Source: Rhabdaerophilum sp. SD176 (GTDB taxonomy: Bacteria; Pseudomonadota; Alphaproteobacteria; Rhizobiales; Beijerinckiaceae). From it: a DNA stretch of 64,000 bases. The stretch is from the NCBI RefSeq assembly GCF_030143245.1, contig NZ_JARJNS010000005.1, forward strand, positions 62,001 to 126,000, read 5' to 3'. Positions 9,837 through 38,048 of the stretch are shown in pieces. Position 1 is the first letter of the stretch; each line of letters begins with the position of its first letter. The position numbers and the translations under genes are program-made. The notes under the pieces were generated by a model, which did not search any database, was not told the origin of the DNA, and saw nothing but the letters and a program-made list of their open reading frames with translations.

Positions 9837-9911
9837 TGGAGCGGGTAAAGGGATTCGAACCCTTGACCCCAACCTTGGCAAGGTTGTGCTCTACCCCTGA
9901 GCTACACCCGC
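9837..9911 (-). tRNA. tRNA-Gly (anticodon GCC)
   Basis: The minus strand folds as a complete tRNA of 75 nt with CCA encoded. The acceptor stem GCGGGTG pairs with TACCCGC (one G-U pair). The D-arm is GCTCAGGGGTAGAGC, the anticodon stem CAACC/GGTTG carries GCC (plus-strand 9877-9879), and the T-arm contains GGTTCGAATCC. Gly-GCC reads GGC and GGT codons. No integrase or duplicated 3' end is seen nearby. Confidence 0.97.
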
Positions 9912-27274: not shown

Positions 27275-28285
27275 ATGGTCGCCATCCGGCCTTCCGAGCT
27301 CCCGCGCTTCACGAGCAGGGATTGCCTTGCCAAACGCGCTATCCTGATTTTCGGGCCGGATGAGGGCGGTATCCGGATCCGGGCTGACCAGATCATCATG
27401 TCATTTGCCGGCCAAACAAGCGATTCGCTGGAACGCCTCGACTTTGATGCCGAAGCGCTCAATGGCGATCCCGGTAAGCTGATGGACGAGGCTCAGGCCT
27501 TCAGCATGTTCTCGGCCCGGAGGCTGATCACCATTTCCGGGGCCGGAAAGCTTTCGAAAGCCATATGGTCACTCGTCCTCGAGACGCACGGCCTCGAGAC
27601 ACCGATCCTCTTCCTCGCTGACGAACTGGCCAAGAATGCCCCGATCCGGGTCGCCTTCGAACAGCACGAAAGCGCTGCGGCCATTGCCTGTTACCCTGCC
27701 AGCCGATCGGAAATCCAGGCTCTGATCGAGGACCGCGTCAAGGCATCAGGACTAAGCATCACCGCAGCTGCATCCGCGGCCCTGTGCGACCTCGTCGGCT
27801 CCGATCTCGGCCTGACCGATCGCGAAATCGAGAAGCTGATTCTCTATTGCCACGGTCGCGTCGCGATCGAGGTGGATGACGTTGCGACCATGCTGGTCGA
27901 CACTTCGGAGCTGGGGCCTGCCGAGGCGATCGACCGGGCCTTCGAGGGCAAGCTCGAGGAGGTGGAATCCGCCACCCTCCGGTGTTTCGCGGAGGGTATC
28001 GCCCCGTCTGGCCTGATCGCCATGGCCCTGGGCCATGCCGGCCTGCTGCGCCGCCTTGCCATGGCGAGCGGCAACATGGAGGCCGCCTTCCGCGCCGAGC
28101 GCATCTTCTTCAAGCGTCAGGATCGCATCCGGATCCAGCAAAAACTTTGGCCCATGGACCAGTTGGGTCGTGCCATCGACATTCTGGCCCAGACGCAGGC
28201 GCAGATGCGCAAGACCCCGGCCATCGAGGAAACGGTAACAGTTCGCGCGCTCTGGTCGATTGCCTTGGCGTCACGCCGCCGGTAG
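27275..28285 (+). CDS. holA: DNA polymerase III delta subunit
   Basis: This 336-residue clamp-loader subunit opens the beta clamp. Visible features are the N-terminal AILIFGPDEGGIRIRADQI, the middle FSMFSARRLITISG and LEKLILYCHG-type sequence (EIEKLILYCHGRVAIEVDDV), and the C-terminal helical QDRIRIQQKLWPMDQLGRAI. The Walker motif is degenerate, as expected for delta. It follows lptE by 8 bp, and its last 15 bp overlap the 3' end of parB on the other strand, so no terminator separates them. Confidence 0.93.
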   Translation: MVAIRPSELPRFTSRDCLAKRAILIFGPDEGGIRIRADQIIMSFAGQTSDSLERLDFDAEALNGDPGKLMDEAQAFSMFSARRLITISGAGKLSKAIWSLVLETHGLETPILFLADELAKNAPIRVAFEQHESAAAIACYPASRSEIQALIEDRVKASGLSITAAASAALCDLVGSDLGLTDREIEKLILYCHGRVAIEVDDVATMLVDTSELGPAEAIDRAFEGKLEEVESATLRCFAEGIAPSGLIAMALGHAGLLRRLAMASGNMEAAFRAERIFFKRQDRIRIQQKLWPMDQLGRAIDILAQTQAQMRKTPAIEETVTVRALWSIALASRRR

Positions 28286-29170
28286 ACCGCCGCTGGCGAG
28301 TTTATGGCTGAGCAATTCGAGTTGCTCGAGCGTGCGATATCGGATTTTCAGCACCCCGCCCTTCTCGCCGCGATGGTCGATTTCCACGGTCAGACCGAGG
28401 ATCTCGGCGAGGCGCAGCTCAAGCGCTGCCGTATCGGCATCCCGAGCACTGGCCTTTTTCGTCGACGGCGCCGGAGCGTCTTCGCCGCGGTTTTCCCGCT
28501 GCGCGACACGCTCGATATCGCGGACCGTCAACCCTTGATCGATAATCTTTCGAGCCATCAATTCGGGATCGGCAACCGCGAGCAAGGCTCGGGCATGTCC
28601 TGCGGAAACCTGGCCGCTCGCGACTTTCTCCTTCACGGAATCAGGAAGCCGCGCCAGACGCAACGTGTTGGCCACATGCGAACGGCTCTTCCCCATCACC
28701 TTGGCAAGATCGGATTGCGTGTAACCATGTTGCGCGATCAGGTTCTCGTAGCCGCGCGCTTCGTCCAATGCATTGAGATCGGCGCGCTGGATGTTCTCGA
28801 TGATCGCGAATTCCAACGCTTGCTTGTCATCCGCTTCGACAAGCACGATCGGGACATCCCGAAGCCCCGCCCGCTGGGCCGCCCGCCAGCGGCGCTCCCC
28901 GGCGATGATCTCGAACGCATCGATCGACCCGGGAACACCCCGAACGATGATCGGCTGGATAATGTCACGCTCCCGAATCGAAGAAGCCAGTTCCTCGAGT
29001 TCTTCCTCGCCGAATGTCTGCCGCGGATTCAATGGGTTCGGTCGCAGGAACTCTACCGGCACCCGACGCTGGGCCCGGTTCCGCGTTTCTGCAGCCGTCT
29101 CGTTGCCGACATCGCCCAGCAGCGCTGCCAGACCACGACCGAGACGCATCCTGGATTGCTCGTCTGCCAT
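28271..29170 (-). CDS. parB: Chromosome partitioning protein ParB
   Basis: This 299-residue CTP-dependent clamp loads at parS and slides along DNA. The CTPase/N-terminal domain contains FLRPNPLNPRQTF, IIQPIIVRGV and the GERRWRAAQRAG motif; the helix-turn-helix is in THDLAKVMG-like TQSDLAKVMGKSRSHVANTLRL; the C-terminal dimer region follows. It lies 12 bp after parA on the same strand, and two parS sites lie 1.4 and 3.4 kb upstream. The N-terminal RLGRGLAALLGD fits the ParA-contacting segment of chromosomal ParB. Confidence 0.96.
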   Translation of the reverse strand: MADEQSRMRLGRGLAALLGDVGNETAAETRNRAQRRVPVEFLRPNPLNPRQTFGEEELEELASSIRERDIIQPIIVRGVPGSIDAFEIIAGERRWRAAQRAGLRDVPIVLVEADDKQALEFAIIENIQRADLNALDEARGYENLIAQHGYTQSDLAKVMGKSRSHVANTLRLARLPDSVKEKVASGQVSAGHARALLAVADPELMARKIIDQGLTVRDIERVAQRENRGEDAPAPSTKKASARDADTAALELRLAEILGLTVEIDHRGEKGGVLKIRYRTLEQLELLSHKLASGGLPAA

Positions 29171-29182
29171 CTCGAACCTCCC

Positions 29183-29983
29183 TTACTCGGCCGCCGCGAG
29201 CAGACGCTCGCGCTGGATGATCTCGGAGGCGAGTTTGAGATAGGCCTGGCTGCCCGCACATTTCAGGTCATAGAGCAGCACCGGCTTGCCATAGGACGGC
29301 GCTTCCGAAACCCGGACATTCCGGGGAATCACCGTCTCGAACACTTTCTTGCCGAGATACTGCCGGACATCGCGGATGACCTGACCGGCCAGGTTGTTGC
29401 GCGGATCGAACATGGTTAGGACGACGCCGTGGATATCGAGATCGGGGTTCACGGTGCTTCGGACCTGATCAATGGTTTTGAGCAGCTGGCTAAGCCCTTC
29501 CAAAGCAAAGAACTCGCATTGGAGTGGCACAAGCACGCCATCAGCAGCAGCCATGGCATTGATCGTCAGCAAGTTCAGTGATGGCGGGCAGTCAATCAGT
29601 ATATAAGTGAAGGGTGATGGTTGACCGATGCTGGAAAGGGTCTGGATCGCCTTCTTGAGACGATCAGTTCTGTCCTTCTGCGTCGCCAAGGTTATTTCGG
29701 CTCCGAGCAGATCCATGGTGGCTGGCACGATCGAAACACGGGGAACATCGGTTACCCGCGCCGCATCGGACAGCGAAACATCGCCGAGCAGAACGTCATA
29801 CGCGGAGATATCACGATCGCGCATATCCACACCGAGACCGGTGGATGCGTTACCCTGGGGGTCCAGATCGATAAGCAACACGCGTTCGCCGATGGCAGCG
29901 AGCGCAGTACCCAGGTTGATGGCCGTCGTGGTCTTCCCCACGCCACCTTTCTGATTGGCTACTGTAAGGACGCGTGGCTTCAT
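29183..29983 (-). CDS. parA: Chromosome partitioning ATPase ParA
   Basis: This 266-residue Walker ATPase pulls ParB-parS complexes toward the poles. It begins RVLTVANQKGGVGKTTTAINL (deviant Walker A, with the signature lysine) and has LIDCPPSLNLLTIN and the C-terminal FETVIPRNVRVSEAPSYGKP, typical of type Ia chromosomal ParA without the DNA-binding extension. The start ATG 29983 is preceded by AGGAGGAG; an upstream seven-codon extension is less likely. It follows rsmG by 32 bp and precedes parB. Confidence 0.96.
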   Translation of the reverse strand: MKPRVLTVANQKGGVGKTTTAINLGTALAAIGERVLLIDLDPQGNASTGLGVDMRDRDISAYDVLLGDVSLSDAARVTDVPRVSIVPATMDLLGAEITLATQKDRTDRLKKAIQTLSSIGQPSPFTYILIDCPPSLNLLTINAMAAADGVLVPLQCEFFALEGLSQLLKTIDQVRSTVNPDLDIHGVVLTMFDPRNNLAGQVIRDVRQYLGKKVFETVIPRNVRVSEAPSYGKPVLLYDLKCAGSQAYLKLASEIIQRERLLAAAE

Positions 29984-30015
29984 GGAACTCCTCCTTGTTG
30001 CCACACGAGCGAAGC

Positions 30016-30672
30016 TTATCCTGGCTGGCGCAGCGGGTCGAAAGCAAGTTCGATGATCCGCGAGGCCGGCTCGGTGATGCTGTCGTGCAGCTGGTAAGAG
30101 AATTGCCAGCTTCGAAGGGCATCGGTCAATTCTAACTGGTAGTCACGGCCCTTTGGAAAGAGCCCTATTGCCCCGCTTTTCAACAGGAGATTCCCGTAGG
30201 CGATCAAATCACTCAACTGAGCCAGAGCACGGGCAGTAAGGACATCGATCGCCGGAAGACGCGGAATAGCCTCTTCGATCCGCATGGCATGAATTGTCGT
30301 GGGTAGCTCAAGCGCCACGGATACCGCTCTGAGAAAGGCCGCTTTCTTATGATTGCTCTCGATCAGATGAATTTGCGCGCCCGCCCGGCCAGCCAAGGCG
30401 CACGCGATCACGATGCCAGGCAAACCACCACCTGACCCCATATCGGCCCAGCAGAGAGCTCGCGGCTTCAAAGCGTGCAATTGCAGGCTATCGACAATGT
30501 GTCGCTCCCAGAGAGAATCAAGGGTCGTCGGCGAGACGAGGTTGATCCGTGCCTGCCATTCCCGGAGCATTCCGACATAGGCCTCAAGCCGCTCGCGTGT
30601 TTCACGTGAAACATCGATCCCGGCCTTTGTCAGGATCGCCTCTCCAGCCAGATCATCGCCCCGTCCGATCAC
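30016..30672 (-). CDS. rsmG: 16S rRNA (guanine-N7) methyltransferase RsmG
   Basis: This 218-residue Rossmann methyltransferase modifies G527 of 16S rRNA. It has [14 protein letters not shown] near the N terminus, [21 protein letters not shown], the SAM-binding [14 protein letters not shown] and [12 protein letters not shown]. The codons for VSRET are a perfect parS site, so this stretch of the protein is dictated partly by ParB binding. The start overlaps the mnmG stop (ATGA), implying translational coupling in the mnmE-mnmG-rsmG-parA-parB block. Confidence 0.95.
30598..30613. other. parS centromere site inside the rsmG 5' coding region
   Basis: TGTTTCACGTGAAACA is a perfect 16-bp palindrome identical to the consensus bacterial parS. 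It lies within rsmG, encoding part of VSRET, 615 bp upstream of the parA start. Confidence 0.95.
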
Positions 30673-32538: not shown

Positions 32539-32554
32539 TGTTTCACGTGAAACA
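32539..32554. other. parS centromere site at the mnmE/mnmG junction
   Basis: A second perfect TGTTTCACGTGAAACA lies one base beyond the mnmE stop codon and just upstream of the preferred mnmG start. It is 1,941 bp from the other parS. Confidence 0.95.
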
Positions 32555-35380: not shown

Positions 35381-35803
35381 TCAGAAGGGCTTGACGATGA
35401 CCAGCACGACGATACCGACCATCAGCAACGTCGGAACCTCATTCTGCATGCGGTAAAACCGTCCCGTGTGGCGTCGCTCGTCACGCGCGAAAGCCGCAAC
35501 CCATGCTCCCTGCAAATGGTGGTGGCCGGTCATCAGCGCAACCAGCAGCAGCTTGCCATGCAACCAGCCGCCGCGGAACCCGAAGCTCGACCAGGCCAGC
35601 CAAAGGCCGGTCCCCCAGGCAACGACCATGGCTGGCCGCATGATGTAGCGGTACAGCTTGCGCTCCATCACCTTGAAGCGCTCGCTGGCATCGGAATGTG
35701 CCTGTGCTTCCGAATGATAGACCATCAGCCTCGGTAGATAGAGCAGGCCAGCCATCCACGAGATGATCGCCAGAACATGCAGAGCCTTGAGCCAGAGATC
35801 CAT
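35381..35803 (-). CDS. hemJ: Protoporphyrinogen IX oxidase HemJ
   Basis: This 140-residue membrane protein has four hydrophobic segments and the HemJ motifs LWLKALHVLAIISWMAGLLYLPRL (conserved His near residue 9) and WLHGKLLLV. HemJ oxidises protoporphyrinogen to protoporphyrin in many bacteria lacking HemG or HemY. Its start codon overlaps the hemE stop by one base, so the two heme genes are coupled. The hemE-hemJ-rho order is a hallmark of alphaproteobacterial origin regions. Confidence 0.94.
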   Translation of the reverse strand: MDLWLKALHVLAIISWMAGLLYLPRLMVYHSEAQAHSDASERFKVMERKLYRYIMRPAMVVAWGTGLWLAWSSFGFRGGWLHGKLLLVALMTGHHHLQGAWVAAFARDERRHTGRFYRMQNEVPTLLMVGIVVLVIVKPF

Positions 35804-36822
35804 CAGCCCCGCACCCGCCGCAACATGGCTTCAACATGCGGGATCGGCGTGGGCGGCAGGATCCCGTGACCCAGATTGAAGACATGCGGCAGGCCCGCCG
35901 TCGATTCGAGGATATGGTCAACCGCCGCATCCAGGCCACTGCCGCCGTTGATCAGGACCAGAGGGTCGAGATTGCCCTGGGTCACCATGCCGGGCGGGAG
36001 TTGCTTCCGGATATCGGAAAGCGCACAGGCCGTATCCAGGCTGATCGCATCGCAGTTCGTTTCGGAAACGAATCGCGAGAAACCACCGGCAATACCCCTC
36101 GGGAATGCAATAATCGGGACGGAGGGGTGGCGGGCCTTCACGCCGGCAATGATCCGCCCGATCGGAGCCTCGCTCCAGCGCCGCAATTCCCTCTCAGGCA
36201 GGTTGCCTGCCCAGGAATCGAAGATCTGAAGCGCCTCGGCGCCAGCTTCTGCTTGCAAGCACAGATGGCGCGTACAGGCTTCGACAAGCAGGTCCGTCAG
36301 TGATTGGAAGGCCTCCGGATGCTGATAGGCAAAATGCCGGGCCGGCGCCTGATCCGGGGTCCCTCGACCGCCGATCATATAGGTCGCCAGCGTCCAGGGA
36401 GCGCCACAGAAGCCAATCAGCGCCACAGATGGTGGCAGGGCAGCGCGCACACCGCGAAGGGCGTTGTAGACCGGTTCCAGCTTCTCCTCGTCAAGAGCGG
36501 ATGCAAGGCCTTTGAGAGCCTCCGGCGTCTCCATCGCTTCGAGACGCGGTCCCTCGCCCTCCGCAAAGCGGACACTCTGACCGAGAGCATCCGGGATGAC
36601 GAGAATATCCGAAAAGATGATGGCGGCATCGAAACTGAACCGCCGGATCGGCTGCATCGTCGCTTCGATCGCGAGTTCCGGCGAATAACAGAAATGCAGG
36701 AAGTCCCGTGCCTGAGAACGGATGGCGCGATATTCCGGTAGATAACGACCGGCTTGACGCATGAGCCAGATGGGGGGACGCGCAGTAGCCTTTCCGGCCA
36801 GAACATCGAGGAAGGGCTTCAC
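35803..36822 (-). CDS. hemE: Uroporphyrinogen decarboxylase
   Basis: This 339-residue enzyme decarboxylates uroporphyrinogen III to coproporphyrinogen III. The signature PPIWLMRQAGRYLPEYRAIR carries the substrate-binding arginines; GFCGAPWTLATYMIGG and GHGILPPTP are also present. I use the GTG start at 36822 (reading KPFLDVLAGK next), which has GGGAG six bases upstream and matches the usual family N terminus; a GTG at 36879 would add 19 residues with no good ribosome site. It borders the candidate origin. Confidence 0.95.
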   Translation of the reverse strand: MKPFLDVLAGKATARPPIWLMRQAGRYLPEYRAIRSQARDFLHFCYSPELAIEATMQPIRRFSFDAAIIFSDILVIPDALGQSVRFAEGEGPRLEAMETPEALKGLASALDEEKLEPVYNALRGVRAALPPSVALIGFCGAPWTLATYMIGGRGTPDQAPARHFAYQHPEAFQSLTDLLVEACTRHLCLQAEAGAEALQIFDSWAGNLPERELRRWSEAPIGRIIAGVKARHPSVPIIAFPRGIAGGFSRFVSETNCDAISLDTACALSDIRKQLPPGMVTQGNLDPLVLINGGSGLDAAVDHILESTAGLPHVFNLGHGILPPTPIPHVEAMLRRVRG

Positions 36823-37214
36823 GAAGGCTCCCGAAAACAAGAAAGGAAGAGGATTCTTCTCTGTTTCTCTTTCTGGCACGCCTCAAAGGGCATCCGCAAG
36901 ATCGTCCACAGAGGAATGTCAACCGGACTGGACACATGGGAAAGACAAGGCGTCCCGAGCCGATCGTTTTTCAAGGAATCCCAGCCGCTTGGAGCAGAAT
37001 GATCCGGCAATGACCGGTTTCTCCCCGATCTTCACATCCTCTCTCCGCAAGAATCCCCAACCCGGTCTCTGGGGATGGATTTCCGCCTTTCCCACAGGGC
37101 CTTCGGCTGCCTTCCCGCAAGGGGCTCGATTGCGCTCGACTGTCCCCCGCCGTAAACAGGGATGTGGACAACCCGGTTGATATCGCCATCGCCCCGGGAC
37201 TTCGGACAGGGATC
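36823..37214. other. Probable chromosomal replication origin region (oriC)
   Basis: This 392-bp non-coding stretch separates hemE from the ppsR (RP001-type) gene, the position of oriC in Caulobacter and Rickettsia. It contains DnaA-box-like nonamers: TGTGGACAA at 37163-37171 (reverse, one mismatch to TTATCCACA), TTTCCCACA at 37088-37096 and TCGTCCACA at 36902-36910 (two mismatches each). GANTC (CcrM-type) sites lie at 36852, 36976 and 37051. Flanking genes all read away from it. I see no CtrA box (TTAA-N7-TTAA) and no strongly AT-rich unwinding stretch. It also holds the hemE and ppsR promoters. Confidence 0.7.
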
Positions 37215-38048
37215 ATGGGCCGGAACTTCTTTCATCTCCATCTGGTCTCGGATTCGACCGGCGAGACGCTGATTACCGTGGCCCGCGCGGCAACGGCGCT
37301 CTATGCCGGTATTTCGCCGATTGAGCATGTCTATCCGCTCGTGCGCAATGAAAGGCAGCTCGACCGGGTCATCCTCGATATCGAGAACGAGCCTGGAATC
37401 GTGCTCTACACGATGGTTGACCAGGAACTGGCGGCCCGCCTGCAGAGAGCCTGCGAGGAACAGGGATGTCCAAGCCTTTCAGTCCTCGAGCCGGTCCATA
37501 ACCTGTTCCAGTCCTATCTCGGCGTGGTGACAACCCCCAAGGCCGGCGCCCAGCACATGCTGAACGCTGAATATTTCCGCCGGATTGATGCCCTCAATTT
37601 CACGATGATGCATGATGACGGCCAATTGACCGAAAATCTCGATCAGGCCGATGTCGTCCTGGTGGGCGTCAGCCGAACCTCGAAGACGCCGACAAGCATC
37701 TATCTCGCCAATCGCGGGATCAAGACGGCCAATGTGCCGCTGGTCCCGAATGTACCGCTTCCGCCCAATATCGAGACGCTGGTCAAGCCGCTGATTGTCG
37801 GCCTCGTGGCCTCCCCGGAGCGCATCGTCCAGATCCGGCAGAACCGGATGCTGGCCCTGGCGGCGGATGGCAAGGATTCGACCTATATTGACCGCCAGGC
37901 CGTAACGGAGGAAATCGCACAGGCCCGCCGCCTGTTCGACCGCAACAACTGGCCGGTGATCGATGTCACGCGACGGTCGATCGAGGAAACCGCTGCCGCA
38001 ATCATCGATCTCTACCGCACGCATCGATTGGGGTTGGTTGCGCAATGA
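37215..38048 (+). CDS. Pyruvate, phosphate dikinase regulatory protein (DUF299)
   Basis: This 277-residue bifunctional serine/threonine kinase and phosphorylase controls pyruvate, phosphate dikinase or PEP synthase. The start [14 protein letters not shown], the P-loop-like [18 protein letters not shown] and the C-terminal [12 protein letters not shown] are typical. The start ATG 37215 has a GACAGG ribosome site; a GTG at 37164 would overlap the best DnaA-like box and is rejected. It begins the rightward arm from the origin and overlaps maf by 4 bp (ATGA). Confidence 0.94.

Follow-up and report, generated by a model that had tools for sequence, protein, structure and literature searches.

The 392-bp intergenic region between hemE and an RP001/COG1806-type gene is in all probability a DnaA-dependent chromosome origin, an ordinary alphaproteobacterial oriC of the hemE-COG1806 kind, as judged from its sequence and that of its relatives. 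We read it so because its flanking genes and length are conserved, its DnaA boxes are enriched and conserved in position, the only exact parS pair of the assembly lies nearby, and strand polarity switches at the same place in relatives. The sequence-only reading had proposed that replication starts here, and each of these features supports that proposal. The result would locate the start of replication in a lineage that has received little study (Rhabdaerophilum relatives), and it yields 75 origin regions that share a conserved box layout. A search of one open literature library found no paper on the origin of this lineage, which does not exclude the existence of one.

The window is the whole stretch of DNA that was analysed (64,000 nucleotides), corresponding to positions 62001-126000 of contig C20 in the host genome, G000, a 3.96-Mb assembly in 25 contigs. 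Its features relevant to the origin, in window coordinates, are:

28271..29170, minus strand: parB, TIGR00180 above cut-off
29183..30004, minus strand: parA (ParA/MinD-type ATPase beside parB), named by position; no NCBIfam family above cut-off among the matches listed (25 of 29)
30598..30613: parS, exact 16-bp palindrome TTTCACGTGAAA, 6.2 kb from the gap
32539..32554: parS, exact 16-bp palindrome TTTCACGTGAAA, 4.3 kb from the gap
35803..36822, minus strand: hemE, uroporphyrinogen decarboxylase, left flank (TIGR01464, 375 bits vs cut-off 303)
36823..37214, 392 bp: probable chromosomal oriC, the hemE-RP001 intergenic region (boxes, alignment, gene context)
36833..36872: conserved A+T-rich purine/pyrimidine element, candidate unwinding element (65% A+T, alignment)
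36902..36910, plus strand: DnaA box 1, TCGTCCACA, 2 mismatches
37054..37059, plus strand: TCCCCA, the sequence of the Caulobacter W-box (weak DnaA site), sequence match
37070..37075, minus strand: TCCCCA (TGGGGA as read), W-box-like, sequence match
37088..37096, plus strand: DnaA box 2, TTTCCCACA, 2 mismatches
37163..37171, minus strand: DnaA box 3, TTGTCCACA, 1 mismatch
37215..38048, plus strand: RP001/COG1806-type kinase-PPPase, right flank (PF03618; NF003742/PRK05339 above cut-off)

Coordinates and profile matches bear out the earlier description of a 392-bp gap flanked by hemE (leftward) and a PF03618/COG1806-type gene (rightward). The gap as drawn runs between the hemE GTG at 36822 (minus strand) and the RP001 ATG at 37215 (plus strand), and depends on the choice of these starts over longer reading frames, which would extend hemE to 36879 and RP001 to 37164. 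The name ppsR given earlier to the right-hand gene is correct as to its PF03618/COG1806 type and loose beyond that, with a score against the PpsR equivalog NF049928 below cut-off (161 of 350 bits). On the left arm the minus strand encodes HemJ, rho, mnmE, mnmG, rsmG, the ParA-type ATPase and parB, and on the right arm the plus strand encodes Maf and a shikimate dehydrogenase-type protein. Rhabdaerophilum calidifontis, with an RP001 protein 91% identical, is among the close relatives. The gap has the intergenic length of about 400 bp between hemE and COG1806 that marks this kind of origin, and the length is conserved (median 415 bp among 75 distinct hemE-RP001 gaps). At gathering scores Rfam matches nothing but a tRNA in the window; this tRNA-Gly (gcc) at 9837-9911 is the only tRNA found there.

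DnaA boxes were searched as TTATCCACA with up to two mismatches. The three boxes recovered agree with the sequence-only reading, which had noted one nonamer at a single mismatch and two weaker ones; the weaker two carry two mismatches, leaving only one box of the gap within one mismatch. Shuffling the gap 1000 times gives 0.52 boxes on average, vs the three present (P=0.011), and at least three at this threshold are found in 0.73% of 7168 stretches of 392 bp drawn from 364 kb of the host contig. By a simple box score over 364 kb of that contig, the gap shares its rank with three other clusters and falls below one. With at most one mismatch allowed, the whole window holds 4 boxes vs 2.98 expected, so the single better box means little without comparative data. 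The within-genome box excess alone is modest evidence for an origin.

Comparison across related gaps provides strong evidence beyond chance. In total 91 hemE-RP001 gaps were found, and 75 distinct ones were used after dropping identical gaps and one 1123-bp sequence (L031/L065); loci without a hemE match in the DNA examined yielded no gap. These gaps exceed their shuffles about 20-fold in near-consensus boxes (TTATCCACA with no more than one mismatch; 1.17 vs 0.06 per gap), TCCACA is the most enriched 6-mer (68 of 75 gaps vs 12.3 expected), and TCCCCA occurs in 53 of 75 vs 23 expected, all of these being counts over related and not independent gaps. At the same loci and threshold, box density is 2.76 per kb in the gaps, 0.08 in hemE coding sequence and 0.06 in RP001 coding sequence.

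The boxes of the gap are thus several beyond chance, and they are also conserved. In an alignment of 15 genus members, five of them from the host clade (G000 and its four closest relatives G011, G012, G013 and G015), box columns are conserved at 0.857 vs 0.584 elsewhere. Among the 384 9-bp stretches scored, 11, 21 and 2 match the conservation of boxes 1, 2 and 3, respectively, which puts box 3 among the top two of the gap in the genus; TCCACA occupies the alignment position of box 1 in 13 of 15 members. Within the five host-clade genomes the box columns reach 0.985 vs 0.837 outside the boxes, and single boxes are unexceptional there, with 120, 69 and 69 of the 384 stretches equalling boxes 1, 2 and 3. 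As to the earlier suggestion of a diverged DnaA arrangement, the boxes are not unusually diverged for the genus. Read from hemE, the layout begins with the A+T-rich purine/pyrimidine element and continues with TCCACA about 80 bp away and a TCCCC-type region. The second rightward box follows some 265 bp from hemE, and a leftward box precedes RP001 by about 50 bp.

The gap is richer in A+T than its surroundings, with a GC content of 57.4% vs 64.5% for the window, and GC is lower in the gap than in RP001 coding sequence at 72 of 75 gaps. The sequence-only reading saw no obvious AT-rich element. A conserved one does adjoin hemE, at 36833-36872, although at 65% A+T it is modest, and to that extent the remark stands. 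In 12 of 15 genus members the 40-bp stretch with most A+T (62-80%) is 10-18 bp away from the hemE start; in the remaining 3 the distance is 126-134 bp. An unwinding role for the element is plausible.

Methylocystis sp. SC2 belongs to the same order as the host of the window. Its predicted oriC resembles the gap in a GC content about 10 points below that of the chromosome and in three DnaA boxes, and its GC skew, in the available part of the source, is likewise without clear inversion; it differs in being a 1063-bp region predicted by Ori-Finder (PMC3794950). The hemE-RP001-type origin gaps of Rickettsia and Caulobacter are 383-404 bp long, in the portion of PMC1914354 available. The Rickettsia prowazekii origin (RP885 hemE to RP001) has the same flanking genes and a length of 384 bp, and differs in A+T content (82.6% vs 42.6% in the gap) (PMC1914354). 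The Caulobacter crescentus Cori is also flanked by the same genes, with 404 bp and A+T above the genome (PMC1914354), and shares with the gap few DnaA nonamers together with TCCCCA W-boxes, the latter being weak sites in Caulobacter (PMC4285127), and a linked parABS (PMC4468827), as far as the available text of these sources goes. Unlike Cori, the gap contains no TGATCCACA G-box within one mismatch and no CtrA-type TTAA-N7-TTAA at up to one mismatch. The layout of the gap is much like that of the origins of its relatives, which makes this very probable origin an ordinary though clear case.

CtrA-like TTAA-N7-TTAA (up to one mismatch) occurs in 36 of the 75 gaps, at 0.71 per gap vs 0.12 in shuffles, and in only 2 of the 15 genus gaps, which suggests that CtrA control may have been gained or lost by lineage among hemE-RP001 gaps. 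Matches to an IHF consensus average 0.64 per gap across the 75 gaps vs 0.22 shuffled; the window gap has none at up to one mismatch. Because the gap has neither a CtrA-type nor an IHF site at this threshold, it is filed as an alphaproteobacterial hemE-COG1806 oriC and not as a CtrA-regulated Cori. The three GANTC sites noted earlier are indeed present, at 36852, 36976 and 37051. The host genome encodes a RAMA-domain protein of the CcrM kind, GcrA, and a protein with a CtrA-like start; CcrM (through GANTC) or GcrA might influence the gap. GANTC falls far short of expectation over the full window (1-64000), with 152 occurrences vs 365 expected.

Two exact copies of TTTCACGTGAAA, which we take to be parS, are the only ones in the 3.96-Mb assembly, and both are inside the window. 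With one mismatch the sequence occurs at four further places, on other contigs.

A switch of strand polarity is a correlate of a hemE-COG1806 oriC and not its definition. It is clearest in G025, a single-contig relative with its gap near 703 kb. With the stretch spanning the gap set aside, all 9 stretches sampled on the RP001 side of G025 have negative plus-strand skew and all 10 on the hemE side have positive skew. We place its terminus at about 2.8 Mb, half the chromosome away from the gap and between the places where the sampled skew changes sign. The octamer GGGCAGGG, which we assume to be KOPS, was listed for the plus strand only; among the matches listed (100 of 129), 99 fall between 725 kb and 2.60 Mb and 1 below the gap. 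Neither G036 nor G055 is informative on the locus: in G036, with 50 plus-strand sites listed, the octamer barely exceeds its control in number (442 vs 399), and for G055 the matches listed include no plus-strand site. GC skew measurements at the gap cover 13 genus genomes out of the 15 with an RP001 match, leaving out G004 and G006. Raw skew switches sign at the gap in 7 of the 8 members outside the host clade, the eighth (G005) having an RP001-side value of -0.003. Under a gene bootstrap, 5 of these 8 (G002, G007, G008, G009 and G014) and G025 have an RP001-side interval above zero. The strand-balanced skew steps in the expected direction in 13 of 13 genomes, the steps of the host clade (+0.005 to +0.033) being within noise. 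A skew minimum elsewhere, which the sequence-only reading had named as evidence against the origin, is not what the relatives display. The host genome itself has no sign change at the gap, a point against the origin reading.

From the boxes, their conservation, the gene context, the parS pair and the polarity switch in relatives we infer how the origin may work, including DnaA binding, the place of unwinding and firing in the host species. DnaA would bind the three conserved boxes (two rightward, one leftward) and probably also the weaker TCCCCA sites. The DnaA complex would then open nearby A+T-rich DNA, most likely the conserved element adjoining hemE, and two forks would depart in opposite directions. 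ParB on the two nearby parS sites would segregate the copies.

The host clade departs from this picture in its GC skew, which changes sign at the gap in 0 of 5 genomes (within about 40 kb) and is negative on both sides; the window and the host contig likewise contain no sign change at the gap. This would fit an ancestral oriC in the gap from which initiation in the host clade has moved, or to which a second origin has been added, with forks crossing the RP001 side leftward, a reading that we consider unlikely. In the same vein, the subclade might retain a hemE-RP001 origin intact in sequence while the polarity of the RP001 arm changed recently through a shifted or extra initiation site; the chance of this seems small, and such a change, if true, would leave one-sign pooled GC skew flanking oriC across the 476-kb contig. 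The pooled RP001-side skew of the host contig has the sign of the hemE side, and the strand-balanced values are -0.050 (interval -0.070 to -0.027) on the hemE side (96 kb) and -0.055 (-0.070 to -0.041) on the RP001 side (266 kb). A 4-mer polarity classifier trained on three relatives gives -0.138 on the RP001 side and -0.356 on the hemE side, but it is weak, since 4 of the 6 genus genomes that belong neither to the clade nor to the training set also score negative on the RP001 side, and it is confounded by shared genes near the gap. Against a moved or second origin, the box columns are still conserved within the clade, the exact parS cores lie beside the gap and nowhere else in the assembly, and the RP001-side skew intervals of the four siblings reach zero or above. 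In addition, the orientation of KOPS-like sites is not the same on the hemE and RP001 sides. On the host contig the plus:minus ratio of GGGCAGGG is 2:11 on the hemE side vs 17:13 on the RP001 side (Fisher P=0.019), and that of GGGNAGGG is 8:17 vs 28:20 (P=0.048); GGGNAGGG is not polar in the nearer 126 kb of the RP001 side (11:12), and the nearer 60 kb in sibling G012 (KOPS-like sites 6:10) gives no help to the origin reading.

The skew itself also fails at the probable terminus of the host genome. On contig C11, among the matches listed (100 of 548), plus-strand sites of GGGCAGGG outnumber minus-strand ones 58 to 3 up to 276.5 kb, and from 289.3 kb to 392 kb there are 3 plus and 20 minus, a flip which indicates that the forks probably meet at 276-289 kb, the replication terminus. 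In eight 8-kb samples, pooled GC skew on either side of this terminus is -0.004 vs -0.026, in the expected direction and without a sign change, and strand-balanced skew is -0.028 vs -0.032 with intervals that include zero. GC skew thus seems a poor guide to fork direction in the host genome, and because it does not separate the two sides of the KOPS-defined terminus, its silence at the gap is weak evidence. Were GC skew the sole criterion, oriC might go unnoticed in this subclade. The one-sign skew flanking oriC in the host clade, unlike 7 of 8 other genus members, accompanies an unchanged nearby gene order. A nearby inversion as its cause was rejected, since gene order is unchanged within roughly 100 kb on either side; in that range, the matches that G002, G009 and G012 have to the host contig are found on the corresponding side. 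Past 240 kb of the contig, relatives give few matches, and these are mixed; part of the skew there may therefore be that of moved DNA.

The gap could also be a divergent promoter region for hemE and RP001 and nothing more, its DnaA boxes regulating transcription. The two genes diverge from the gap and their promoters are probably inside it, and DnaA boxes are also found in regulated promoters. Such a reading is nevertheless very improbable. Against it, the polarity of relatives' chromosomes switches at the gap and parS is located beside it; furthermore, no transcription was observed from the oriC intergenic region of S. meliloti, according to the available part of PMC2245857. The chance that a cluster denser in DnaA boxes, located 41 kb rightward at C20:140593-140860, is the true origin instead is close to negligible. 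This cluster has the top box score in the 364 kb of contig examined, but sibling G012 lacks the stretch that contains it (about 140328-140956). It therefore resembles an insertion that the clade does not share, and was rejected.

The stretch G000:C20:140328-140956 (about 0.6 kb, absent from G012) contains a TTGTCCCCA site and a pair of GTATCCACA boxes in opposite orientation. The dnaA gene was rejected as an origin neighbour, as it is 276 kb away at C20:375 kb; one near-consensus box (377319) is located 0.35 kb beyond its open frame. A second match to the DnaA C-terminal (DNA-binding) domain was found at G000:C19:53833-54003, in a 159-codon open frame.
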